Below, one piece after another: positions 4,446 through 7,690 of a stretch of 10,850 bases of DNA. Origin of the DNA: an archaeon (GTDB taxonomy: Archaea > Hydrothermarchaeota > Hydrothermarchaeia > JALTZZ01 > JALUTC01); assembly GCA_027051265.1 (NCBI GenBank), contig JALTZH010000191.1, positions 1 through 10,850 of the forward strand. Reading direction: 5' to 3'. The translations under genes were made by a program, and so were the position numbers. Under the pieces are notes generated by a model that saw only the letters and a program-made list of their open reading frames with translations, made no database searches and had not been told where the DNA came from. Every line of letters begins with the position of its first letter. Within the stretch, counting starts at the first letter, position 1.

Positions 4446-4971
4446 CAAGACCGCCCCCTATATCTTTATTAAATCTTCGAACGAATAATTTTTAAAAAGT
4501 ACTTTAAATATCTAAATCTAAGCGGCAAGATTTTTCACTGTCCCGTTCTTCTTCCATAAAGAGGATTTTTATATCCCAAAACCTCGATCTCCATCATACC
4601 TATGCTTGATCCGCAAAGAATAAGCATGACATTTCTCTTGCTCAAAATTTCATCCCATATTTTTTGAAATTGAGAAACTATACCTTTATTAAGCTCTATA
4701 AGATAAGGAAATTCATCAAAAACAATTACTACCTTTTTATCTTTAATCTCATCTATGAAGTATTTAAAAAGCTCGTGAAATGAACTAACCTCAAGTTTTA
4801 AAAAGTATTCCTTCTTTGTAAATTCGGAAAACTTCTTCTTGAGCTCTTTTAAATTTTCTGTAATACTATCAAATGCCACTTTTATTCGATAAAAATCTTC
4901 TTAATAACTCGCTTTTTTCCAATCCTTCTTCTTCCATAAATTATTATCAAATTTGCGTTTCGCTCTGGATA
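4446..4971 (-). pseudogene. Decayed archaeal-family AAA ATPase gene (P-loop to mid-domain remnant)
   Basis: Reading the minus strand through several lesions restores a PF01637-type archaeal ATPase. The N-terminal part reads YPERNANLIIIYGRRRIGK (Walker A, IYGRRRxGK type). SELLRRFLSNK follows after removing one A from the A6 run at 4913-4918. FDSITENLKELKKKFSEF follows after removing one A from the run at 4880-4883. Next come VVIVFDEFPYLI (Walker B) and LILCGSSIGMMEIEVLGYKNPLYGRRTGQ. A TGA at 4535-4537 stands where the family usually has Trp; beyond it the frame continues KILPLRFRYLKYF. One more indel near 4489-4498 is needed before KNYSFEDLIKI, and a TAG at 4458-4460 follows. The C-terminal half, normally DUF234, and the first 20 or so residues are missing. 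The longest unbroken stretch is 4535-4879 from a GTG. Clearly non-functional. Confidence 0.8.
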
Positions 4972-4994
4972 GCTATGCATAAGCATAGCTATCC
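4967..4994. repeat. Perfect 12-bp inverted repeat with 4-base loop
   Basis: GGATAGCTATGC and GCATAGCTATCC flank ATAA. It lies at the boundary where recognisable ATPase homology stops and the GC-rich region starts, so it may mark an element end or a recombination point. Confidence 0.8.
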
Positions 4995-5115
4995 ATCATC
5001 GCACATATGGTTCCCTTTGTGGATACTTCATTAGGGAGCACAGCTCCCTTTCGTATCCACATCATCGGGCAGTCGTGGGGCACGCGAACCCCACCCATTT
5101 TCGATATTGCAACGT

Positions 5116-5168
5116 AACCTCCTGCTCCTGATGGTTTACGATACCGTCATTGGAGCAGGAGGTTTTTT
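5116..5168 (+). terminator. Strong GC-rich hairpin followed by a T run
   Basis: AACCTCCTGCTCC (5116-5128) pairs perfectly with GGAGCAGGAGGTT (5152-5164). The loop holds a nested stem, TGATGGT (5129-5135) with ACCGTCA (5143-5149), complete if one G-U pair is allowed. Six T residues follow (5163-5168). In a bacterium this would be called an intrinsic terminator. In archaea the T run is the usual signal, and such a strong hairpin is notable. It is also the last stem of the candidate RNA at 4967-5168. Confidence 0.45.
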
Positions 5169-5170
5169 CT

Positions 5171-5304
5171 CCACAATAAAAATTAAATTTTTAAAAATTG
5201 AAAAAATTTTGAAAACGAGCCACGAGTAGCGAGGGAATCAAATTTGATCTATCTTTTTAAACTCGCAACAAAGCAAAATGTTAATTATTTCTATTTAAAG
5301 TTTA
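5171..5304. other. AT-rich stretch without recognisable gene
   Basis: Between the T run of the last hairpin and the ATPase N-terminal fragment no gene is visible on either strand. It holds long A/T runs, the short palindrome TCAAATTTGA at 5238-5247, and CGAG three times at exact 7-nt spacing (5216, 5223, 5230). Nothing assigns a function. Confidence 0.4.
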
Positions 5305-5397
5305 CTAAACTATAGTAGCCTTATTCTCCTTAAATTTTTCTTCCAAAAATTTTAGCTCCTCTTCTCTATCAACAAAATGTTGTATCATGAGTATCAT
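5305..5397 (-). pseudogene. N-terminal fragment of an archaeal-family ATPase gene
   Basis: From ATG at 5397 (or better at 5388) the minus strand reads 30 codons containing HFVDREEELKFLEEKF and then KENKATIV before TAG at 5305-5307. FVDREEEL followed by a short helix is the standard start of PF01637 ATPases, just ahead of the P-loop strand. The rest of the gene is not here. The remnant at 4446-4971 starts with an equivalent but different segment (PERNANLIII), so the two pieces overlap in the alignment by about ten residues and probably come from two paralogues. A TATA-like GTTTAAATAG at 5411-5420 lies about 27 nt ahead of the ATG at 5388, so the promoter may still be present. Confidence 0.65.
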
Positions 5398-5432: not shown

Positions 5433-5864
5433 CTATAGCTTTGAGGGATCAATAATCTCGAGAAAATAAACCCTACTAAAATCGTCGTCAAATGTTGCGA
5501 TTTTCCTAATCCCGTAATATTTACATGTGGCCGCTATAAGGGCATCATTTGGAAGAAGCTTATAATTTTCCATAATCTTAATAATTTCTCTACCTATTTT
5601 TAACGGAAGCACGGTAAAGAATGAAAACAAATCATTCAACGGTTTTAAAATCTTAAGATCGATGGATTTAATTCTTTTTTTAAGTTCAAAAGGATTCAAA
5701 CCAGTATATGCTCTAAGAAAACCGTAAATAACTTCCGAAATAACTATATCGTTAATAAAACCCCTTATTTCTCTTGATTCAACTTTATGTAAGAGTTTTG
5801 TCACTTCAGGTTTTTCATCGGCCAAATGATATAGGAATACATTTGAATCAAAGAATACTTCCAC
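5433..5864 (-). CDS. PIN-domain toxin (VapC-like), module 1
   Basis: A protein of about 143 residues with the PIN ribonuclease fold. Conserved acidic residues are the first Asp in EVFFDSNV, the Glu in VISEVIYG, the Asp in LLPNDALIAAT and the aspartates of ATFDDDF. They would bind the Mg2+ or Mn2+ for RNA cleavage. VapC toxins typically cut tRNA or rRNA. GTG at 5864 is preferred because GAGGAG lies seven bases before it; a TTG two codons upstream (5870) would have only one base of spacing. The start lies inside the upstream DUF104 antitoxin gene (17-nt overlap), so the pair is coupled. The C-terminal third is closely similar to the second PIN protein at 6061-6528, while the first two thirds differ. 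Confidence 0.85.
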   Translation of the reverse strand: MEVFFDSNVFLYHLADEKPEVTKLLHKVESREIRGFINDIVISEVIYGFLRAYTGLNPFELKKRIKSIDLKILKPLNDLFSFFTVLPLKIGREIIKIMENYKLLPNDALIAATCKYYGIRKIATFDDDFSRVYFLEIIDPSKL

Positions 5865-6036
5865 TCTCAATCTCCTCTATAATTTTTTCCATGTTTTTAT
5901 TTTTCAAGACCCCCCGCGTTTGTTCTACAATACTTCTCTCTATTTTTATTTTAACCTTTTCACCTTCTTTTAGATTAAGTTTCCCTAAGGGTTTTAAAAT
6001 CCCTTTCTCATAAATGGCTTCAACCACTATCTCCAT
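5848..6036 (-). CDS. DUF104 antitoxin (AF2212-like), module 1
   Basis: A 62-residue protein. VEAIYEKGILKPLGKLNLKEGEKVKIKIE is the DUF104 domain (PF01954), the antitoxin half of many archaeal VapBC-type modules; it is expected to bind promoter DNA as an oligomer. The C-terminal half (SIVEQTRGVLKNKNMEKIIEEIES) is charged and helical and should wrap the partner PIN toxin. GAGGT directly abuts the ATG, which is unusually close for a Shine-Dalgarno site, but the same arrangement is kept in the second module. It lies 24 nt downstream of PIN toxin 2, so the two modules may be one transcript. Confidence 0.82.
   Translation of the reverse strand: MEIVVEAIYEKGILKPLGKLNLKEGEKVKIKIERSIVEQTRGVLKNKNMEKIIEEIESGSIL
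5872..5877 (-). promoter_or_regulatory. Ribosome binding site deciding the start of PIN toxin 1
   Basis: GAGGAG inside the 3' end of the antitoxin gene is seven bases upstream of GTG at 5864. PIN toxin 2 has the same GAGGAG (6539-6544), ten bases before its ATG. Confidence 0.5.
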
Positions 6037-6060: not shown

Positions 6061-6528
6061 TTACAACTTCGATTGATCAATAATCTCGAGGAAATTAACC
6101 CTTTTAAAGTCTTCATCGAATGTTACAATTTTCTTAATTTCATAGTATTTGCAAGTAGCCACTATAAGAGCATCGTTTGGAAGTAGTTTATAATGCTTCA
6201 TGATATCCATAAAGTCATCCATGCTAAAAATATTCTGTTTGATATCAATGTTAAATATTTTAAGGAACTCGAAAAATTTCTTATGCAAAATTATATCTTT
6301 ATAATCGTTTTTAGCTATAAAATCCTTCTGATCATAAAACCTTTCAATACCCTTAGCTCTCAATTCTTCTCGAACAAGTATAAAAACCGTTTCCTCGAAT
6401 ATATTAACGAAAATCGTTGGTTTGTATTTAGTTAATGATAATTTTATCAGTTCCTTTGCAGTTTTCGTAAGTTCTGTTTTCAGAAAAAAATTTACAAGAA
6501 CATTTGTATCTATTAGAATTTCCTCCAT
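6061..6528 (-). CDS. PIN-domain toxin (VapC-like), module 2
   Basis: A 155-residue PIN-domain protein. MEEILIDTNVLVNFF carries the first catalytic Asp (D7), FEET the Glu (about 45-46), LLPNDALIVAT an Asp at 119, and VTFDEDF the last acidic cluster near 138. The predicted activity is metal-dependent RNA cleavage, held in check by the upstream DUF104 antitoxin, whose gene it overlaps by 16 nt. ATG at 6528 is preceded by GAGGAG at ten bases. From about residue 108 to the end it closely resembles PIN toxin 1 (KLLPNDALI, ATCKYY, FLEIID and SKL endings are shared). The N-terminal two thirds are different and about twelve residues longer. Confidence 0.85.
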   Translation of the reverse strand: MEEILIDTNVLVNFFLKTELTKTAKELIKLSLTKYKPTIFVNIFEETVFILVREELRAKGIERFYDQKDFIAKNDYKDIILHKKFFEFLKIFNIDIKQNIFSMDDFMDIMKHYKLLPNDALIVATCKYYEIKKIVTFDEDFKRVNFLEIIDQSKL

Positions 6529-6722
6529 TCTTTTGCTTCTCCTCTGAGTTTTTTAATGTCTTCAAGCGTTATTTTTGATTCTATTAATCCGCAGTATTCT
6601 TCCAAAACTTCATCCAAATTTCTCTCTATTTTTATTTTAACCCTTTCACCTTCTTTTAGATTAAGCTTCTCTAAAGGTTTTAAAATCCCTTTCTCATAAA
6701 TAGCTTCAATAACTATCTCCAT
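6513..6722 (-). CDS. DUF104 antitoxin (AF2212-like), module 2
   Basis: A 69-residue protein starting MEIVIEAIYEKGILKPLEKL, again a DUF104 domain. Its N-terminal half is almost identical to the antitoxin of module 1. Its C-terminal half (from about NLDEVLEEYCGLIE, ending EWRKF) is unrelated, as expected if each tail recognises its own toxin. The frame stays open upstream to an ATG at 6794, but that start would overlap the end of the marker-12 gene. The shorter ATG matches the start in module 1 and is preferred. It lies 46 nt downstream of the marker-12 gene on the same strand, so read-through from that gene is possible. Confidence 0.82.
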   Translation of the reverse strand: MEIVIEAIYEKGILKPLEKLNLKEGERVKIKIERNLDEVLEEYCGLIESKITLEDIKKLRGEAKEWRKF

Positions 6723-6746
6723 ACCTCTTATAAAATGAATAACATC
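6620..6746. repeat. Direct repeat, copy 2 (antitoxin N-terminus and upstream bases)
   Basis: Partner of 5934-6060, gap-free over 127 bp. The recent duplication or gene conversion covers only the putative DNA-binding half of the antitoxin and its leader. Confidence 0.85.
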
Positions 6747-6768
6747 AATTAGAAACCTATGGATTTTT

Positions 6769-7690
6769 TCAATGAGTAAATTTCGGATAAACATCTATTC
6801 CTAAAATTTTTTCCGCTCCATTGTATATATCCTTTGCAATGAAAGATGCTCCAACGGCTTGTACCTTGTTATTTTCAATGGCTACATCGCATAAATCCTT
6901 TAATTCCTTATATATCTCATCCCTAAAAGTTTCGTTCTCAACAGCTGAACCAGCAAGTACGATCAAATCCGGTTCACATATTTTAAAAAGGGAATTTATT
7001 TGTAATAATGCAGACAATTTTAAGCATTCTCTCGCAAATTTATTCTCAAAGAATTTTTCCTCGGATATTCCTAACCTGTATATCAATCCTCCCTTATAAA
7101 ATGCTTCACCTGCTTTTATTAACCCCCTATCTATTCTTCTTATATCTTCCAAATCCAATACACCGTGATATAAACCTCGGGATAATATACAGGCATCTAT
7201 TCCCGCAAATAATTTCGAATCCTTTATTGCAACGGTAACGATATTCGAGGATATATCCGATATTAAAATATTTTTCTTTTTATATTTTTTAAAACAATAA
7301 TATGCCAAGGCTACCTTATCACTCGCACCCATGTGAGAAAATAAAGTTCTAAACCTTTCATCCAATACCTTTAAATTTTTATGCAATCCTGGTATTTGAT
7401 TATGTAATATATTTTTCTGATATTTCATCGTATACCCTCGTGCCTCCACCTATATAATCTCCAACGAATTTCTCCAAAAGACTTCTGTTCTTAACATATC
7501 TCGTATCAATAATTTTATCTATACCGTCACCCATTGAATATGCAATTGCAACTATTCTTATATCATATTCGCTTAACTTTTTCATGAAATCAATCTTCAA
7601 CAAATCCTTTCTGCTATATTCTAAGAATACATTTTCCGGTTCGATATGAAATCTCACGGATTTATATCCATGATCTATTCCGAGAAACAT
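6769..7690 (-). pseudogene. Methanogenesis marker protein 12, split by a one-base frameshift
   Basis: The first part (ATG at 7690) reads MFLGIDHGYKSVRF, IAYSMGDGIDKII and GDYIGGGTRVYDEISE, then hits a stop at 7400. The next frame continues IPGLHKNLKVLDERFRTLFSH, NILISDISSNIVTVAI, LFAGIDACI and GLYHGVLDLEDIRRIDRG. Together these match, in order and spacing, methanogenesis marker protein 12 (TIGR03281), an ASKHA-fold (butyrate-kinase-like) protein of unknown function found in methanogens. Removing one A from the A5 run at 7412-7416 joins the parts into about 306 residues, near the family length. No other lesion is seen, so this may be a sequencing error, a very recent mutation or, less likely, programmed frameshifting. 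The starts of this gene and of the divergent ACT gene are 11 bp apart. Confidence 0.75.

Follow-up and report, generated by a model that had tools for sequence, protein, structure and literature searches.

The window analysed here is a stretch of archaeal DNA of 10,850 nucleotides, which contains an array of four consecutive hairpins with a GC content of 49%, compared with 30% for the window. What this array is, and on which strand it would act, are the questions raised by the locus. A sequence-only reading had taken the array, at 4967-5168, to be an unknown RNA or a mobile element. We found that the hairpins do lie there and that the feature itself is wider: the array forms the larger part of a 365-bp element, at 4955-5319, which is repeated in its own genome. 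We are highly confident that this element derives from an IS607-family transposon and is non-autonomous (MITE/PATE-like), and our confidence is only slightly lower when the identity of the element is taken jointly with the strand and nature of its RNA scaffold.

Structure of the hairpin array and layout of the element

The features of the element and its surroundings are listed below in the minus-strand direction, with C numbers for contigs of the same genome.

4535-4954 and 5320-5391 flank the element, as follows:
5320-5391, minus strand: N-terminal part of the interrupted ATPase gene (MIQHFVDREEELKFLEEKFKENK)
4955-5319, minus strand: whole element, with its left end at 5319, its right end at 4955 and one GC crossover dinucleotide per end
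5318-5319, no strand: deduced left crossover dinucleotide GC, common to both ends and to the uninterrupted reading ...AAG GCA AAT TTG...
5303-5317, minus strand: short palindrome TACTAaacTATAGTA inside the left end
5201-5317, minus strand: left end and AT-rich spacer, 91% conserved in C104, with its start kept in C90 and C225
5169-5200, minus strand: AT-rich leader that adjoins hairpin 4 on its upstream side and contains TATA-like TTTTTAAAAA; putative promoter of the RNA
5116-5164, minus strand: hairpin 4, 13 bp plus an inner stem; 5'-most stem of the putative omegaRNA
4976-5113, minus strand: what is left of the TnpB C-terminus, in a stretch shared with hairpins 3 to 1
5075-5094, minus strand: hairpin 3, a 6 bp stem based on the fold, with loop UUCGCGUG
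5060-5069, minus strand: linker CCCGATGATG (plus strand: CATCATCGGG)
5019-5060, minus strand: hairpin 2, with an outer stem of 8-9 bp and an inner stem of 6-7 bp
4966-4995, minus strand: hairpin 1, 13 bp and perfect; subterminal palindrome adjoining the right end
4955-4956, no strand: deduced right crossover dinucleotide GC, found after GAAAC in the window, C232, C17 and C90
4935-4954, minus strand: would-be guide AAATTTGATAATAATTTATG, host sequence; the length of 20 is assumed and the position is by analogy with reRNA (PMC8612924, PMC10711439)
4535-4954, minus strand: remainder of the interrupted, decayed ATPase gene, with PF01637 at 4538-4879 (E = 4.9e−13)

All four hairpins described before were recovered, as were the GC-rich composition and the repeated linker: the window has exactly two occurrences of CATCATCG, and both lie inside the array, with 0.20 occurrences expected by chance. 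On the plus strand (4940-5190) the minimum free energy was −100.5 kcal/mol, compared with a mean of −55.6 for shuffled sequences (z = −10.8; 0 of 200 shuffles), and on the minus strand (4957-5170) the fold had a z of −10.2, with no shuffle equally good. When the whole window was scanned in 100-nt steps, the three 200-nt segments of lowest energy all overlapped the array. A check against Rfam matched no known family at the gathering level, and E values up to 10 gave only chance-level matches. Compensatory base changes, which the sequence-only reading had also suggested looking for, were found in hairpin 4, where 3 pairs were altered on both sides among 7 distinct sequences (score reached by 7 of 500 shuffles). 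Across the whole array the signal was weak (2 pairs altered on both sides, score reached by 37 of 500 shuffles) because the copies are too alike. All cells of the outer stem of hairpin 2 were paired in the 4 aligned sequences.

Copies, boundaries and the interrupted ATPase gene

The lack of a second copy had been named in advance as an argument against the array being an RNA or mobile element. We searched the element's own genome (1.46 Mb, 257 contigs, 95% complete) by BLASTN and found copies on C104 (93%), C232 (94%), C225 (79%) and, in part, C90, together with a right end on C17 which is 95% identical to that of the window and covers hairpins 1-3; as further copies exist, the argument falls away. 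C104 starts with exactly the 127 nt that end C232; this resembles an assembler k-mer overlap, and these two were therefore read as one copy. The C225 and C90 copies are both missing parts, with the latter being further deleted. The left end GGCTACTATAG (minus direction) is common to the window, C104 and C90 and has one base changed in C225, while the right end GAGCGAAACGC is found in the window and C17, carries 1-2 changes in C232 and C90 and has been lost in C225. No long inverted repeat joining the ends appeared in an inverted-repeat listing of the region up to 5400, which is not a base-by-base comparison. The window and the C104/C232 copy have the same layout at different sites, which supports movement of the element as a gene-less unit.

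Hairpin 4 alone was also found on C71, C99, C139 and C49, as well as in the genome G002, which is from the same order. Viral contigs gave 0 matches when searched with the TnpB of C49 and with the hairpin 1 pattern. A match in G029 (E = 0.003, 39 nt) was rejected as chance, with the array being absent around it. By eye, another tnpB-type element seems to have the C104/C232 copy at its right end, and the C225 copy has tnpB-element sequence alongside it; these are apparent nested insertions (L019:8400-8715 with L018:1-345; L021:5800-6190).

On the minus strand, MIQHFVDREEELKFLEEKFKENKA leads up to the left end and NLIIIYGRRRIGK follows the right end. Removal of the element together with one GC restored the reading of the ATPase gene, and this reading aligned without gaps across the restored junction to intact homologues of 476 aa in G017 (60% identity) and 481 aa in G008 (49% identity). 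The crossover dinucleotide was thus deduced to be GC, with no target duplication. The GC is present at the junctions in the window, C104/C232 and C90, and a single GC is present in the uninterrupted reading. It should be noted that the ATPase gene is also frameshifted near its Walker motif, beyond the insertion point, so the insertion is not the sole damage to this gene.

Two other groups of minus-strand genes were observed in the window. The ORFs at 7400-7690 and 6769-7449 overlap in different frames and have the appearance of a single actin/ATPase-fold gene that a frameshift has split. At 5433-6036 and 6061-6794 we saw by eye two similar pairs in tandem, each made up of a PIN-like protein and its short partner, which are probably duplicated toxin-antitoxin pairs.

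Descent from the IS607 family

The right end on C17 lies at the 3' end of a tnpB gene, the open frame of which passes through hairpins 3-1. This tnpB (PF07282 match, 1.4e−15) is broken into separate frames and has a fragment of an IS607 transposase upstream of it (NF033518, E = 1.4e−42). The minus strand of the window still encodes 46 aa which match residues 113-158 of the TnpB fragment on C17 at 85% identity (E = 4e−21), so the earlier statement that there is no ORF in the array was not quite accurate. In the own genome, IS607 transposase matches were found on C49 (an intact tnpA, E = 1.4e−61), C39 (intact), C17, C153 (one stop) and C117 (weak). The transposase on C17, the TnpB remnant in the window and these matches together therefore point to an IS607 derivative that has lost its genes. 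The element is without a tnpA of its own and nearly all of tnpB is also gone, and the absence of its own tnpA is the reason why it is classed only as a non-autonomous derivative.

On C49 and in G002, hairpin 4 lies within the 3' end of the tnpB of a sister family. C17 has no hairpin 4 and that of the window resembles the sister family; the window element is therefore read as a mosaic of both families. No intact tnpB with a window-type right end was found: the sole tnpB of this kind, on C17, is broken, and one could be missing since repeats break the assembly. No left end of a family A parent was seen. A search of genome contigs with the C49 TnpB gave 3 loci, all in S141 MAGs. An S141 MAG is mentioned alongside Tui Malila and Brothers volcano in work on deposits of deep-sea vents (PMC9793634), which suggests that the source is a vent archaeon. 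We also observed that L089 (WFXA01000050.1), a contig filed as a Flavobacteriaceae MAG, has a TnpB with 94% identity to the archaeal one over 85 aa, a likeness for which mis-binning is more likely than transfer.

Comparison with the IS607 family (IS607, ISC1904 and ISXfa1, which have a serine TnpA and TnpB) showed three likenesses: ends linked to IS607 tnpA/tnpB in the same genome, a dinucleotide common to both junctions without target duplication, and a right end which overlaps the 3' end region of tnpB. The window element differs in having neither tnpA nor tnpB of its own. It also differs from IS607 itself, in which the crossover dinucleotide is GG (PMC4058570, PMC6188088) and not GC, with GG being the value for IS607 and perhaps not for all members.

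An alternative is an IS200/IS605 PATE, moved as single-stranded DNA by a Y1 (HUH) transposase for which the hairpins would be recognition sites; there are subterminal palindromes at both ends, target duplication is absent, and IS605-derived PATEs are known in archaea (PMC3119063). However, the own genome (95% complete) contained no Y1 transposase (PF01797), and this origin was rejected on that ground. In addition, the relative with the same right end carries an IS607 transposase, and a dinucleotide common to both junctions fits serine recombination. We consider an IS200/IS605 origin very improbable and descent from IS607 the preferred reading. As an IS607 derivative, the element is comparable to the PATEs of Haloquadratum and Halanaerobium (PMC3119063, PMC7290912), which are also transposase-free derivatives of TnpB transposons with palindromic ends; the 271-nt Halanaerobium PATE has likewise kept its right end in full and the final 58 nt of tnpB. 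Those PATEs come from IS200/IS605, whereas the window element comes from IS607 and has a tnpA-like leader before its scaffold. In open-access papers we found nothing on point about IS607 MITEs or solo omegaRNAs. The kind of element is known and its details are modestly new.

A second gene-less family was observed (C71, C139, C99; L023:1-300, L025:2640-3013, L024:3120-3620), the right end of which matches the intact C49 IS607 element. In seven G000 contigs (C194, C173, C21, C32, C138, C50 and C12), the 3' regions of further tnpB genes close with a GC-rich hairpin and have a GGGAGGAGGTCA-like motif in common; these are probably other omegaRNA families.

A putative guide RNA scaffold on the minus strand

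In known reRNAs, the 3' end of tnpB and the right end make up the RNA, and the host DNA that flanks the element supplies the guide (PMC8612924). For the IS607 reRNA, activity depends on a pseudoknot, and the scaffold includes a fixed flanking nucleotide (PMC10711439). By analogy, we infer that the minus strand of the array is a TnpB reRNA/omegaRNA scaffold, the RNA of which would start near 5170, reach the right end at 4955 and continue into the host gene. Its position is that of such a scaffold, at the tnpB 3' end and right end, as given by the C17 homologue and by the TnpB remnant in the window. It resembles TnpB reRNAs, including that of ISXfa1 (PMC10711439), in its right-end location, its several stem-loops, a 3' end that coincides with the transposon boundary, beyond which the host sequence would be the guide, and a possible pseudoknot between a loop and the right end. 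It differs in that no tnpB lies beside it. It also differs from the RAGATH-18-type IS607 reRNA, for which independence from coding sequence has been described (PMC11061315): the window scaffold shares sequence with the tnpB frame, and it matches neither RAGATH-18 nor any other Rfam family. The linker, which reads CCCGATGA on the minus strand, was also found in the RNA regions of the tnpB loci on C17, C39, C153 and in G048, CCGATGA being a linker common to other tnpB loci.

The sequence-only reading had placed the RNA on the plus strand, as a transcript of about 200 nt running from hairpin 1 to a T6 run near 5168, with a weak TATA-like sequence at 4935-4943 as a candidate promoter. The fold is indeed strong on the plus strand too, and T6 does follow hairpin 4. 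However, the tnpB homologue, the TnpB remnant and the guide-side end all place the RNA on the minus strand, the proposed TATA lies inside the interrupted host ATPase gene, and the T run is the A run of a minus-strand AT-rich leader which is common to other copies, and is no evidence of a plus-strand terminator. We give a plus-strand RNA gene almost no credence; of the earlier proposal, the mobile element and the structured RNA each hold in part, and the isolated plus-strand RNA gene is not supported.

For the minus-strand scaffold, the gene-less copies have an AT-rich stretch with the TATA-like TTTTTAAAAA, then TTGTGGAG or similar, before hairpin 4. A leader-like stretch is present in the gene-less C104, C71, C139 and C99 and before tnpA in C49 and G002. 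The left end of C139 is also that of C49 and G002, which do carry tnpA, and the C139 leader resembles the region before their tnpA start. Alignment of this AT-rich DNA with the sister elements hints that a deletion may have placed the tnpA promoter ahead of the RNA.

A pseudoknot can be drawn between the loop of hairpin 3 and the right end. It has 4 bp (GCGU/ACGC) in the window, C104/C232 and C17, which alone is at chance level, and an alternative 4-bp register in the window is equally long (UUCG/CGAA). At the corresponding place there are 6 bp in C39, G048 and three G058 loci (CCGUUC/GAACGG or CCGUUG/CAACGG) and 5 bp in family B (GUGGU/ACCAC); the G048 and G058 element ends were set from the AACGG motif, so this comparison is partly circular. 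The hairpin 3 loop may pair with the right-end ACGC as a pseudoknot and, if so, the base adjoining the guide has changed from G to C together with its pairing partner.

Whether an RNA is active is a sub-question of its own. The element could be a dead deletion remnant of IS607 origin from which no RNA is made or used, with hairpins that persist only through recent insertion, and on this sub-question we lean towards that answer. The cognate tnpB on C17 is broken, the host ATPase gene is itself decayed and the C225 and C90 copies are missing parts, while the stems were not significantly less changed than other positions between the window and C104/C232 (3 of 102 vs 9 of 106, P = 0.14). A dead remnant is harder to reconcile with the compensatory changes in hairpin 4, with the gene-less layout of the window and C104/C232, which moved, or with the comparison to C17, where 0 of 66 stem positions and 9 of 87 elsewhere had changed (P = 0.01; one of six comparisons). 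We hold it possible, though doubtful, that the RNA is currently made and used.

In the element tnpA and nearly all of tnpB are missing, with the left end, the AT-rich leader and the hairpin-rich right end being kept. Under the mechanism proposed here, an IS607 serine transposase acting in trans would have moved the element by crossover between matching GC dinucleotides. The TATA-like leader, now directly before hairpin 4, would drive a minus-strand scaffold RNA, the host sequence past the right end would serve as guide and, with a compatible TnpB, the RNA would target the empty, uninterrupted allele for cleavage. A broader proposal, which we regard as rather unlikely, is that gene-less IS607 elements are a class of solo guide-RNA genes, in which a tnpA-like promoter was fused to an omegaRNA by deletion; each insertion would then create a trans-acting guide against its own empty site, with TnpB borrowed for retention and TnpA for movement, and the GC (vs GG) dinucleotide and the pairing pseudoknot base would have changed together.

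What had been an unexplained row of hairpins is now defined as a mobile element, with its limits placed and the host gene that it splits recognised. Were their RNA made, elements of this kind would bring along a guide but no nuclease, and would offer a simple setting for asking whether gene-less copies are kept by TnpB acting in trans. The joint change of the dinucleotide and the pseudoknot, if true, would be evidence that transposase and guide RNA constrain each other, as has been proposed for IS607 (PMC10711439).
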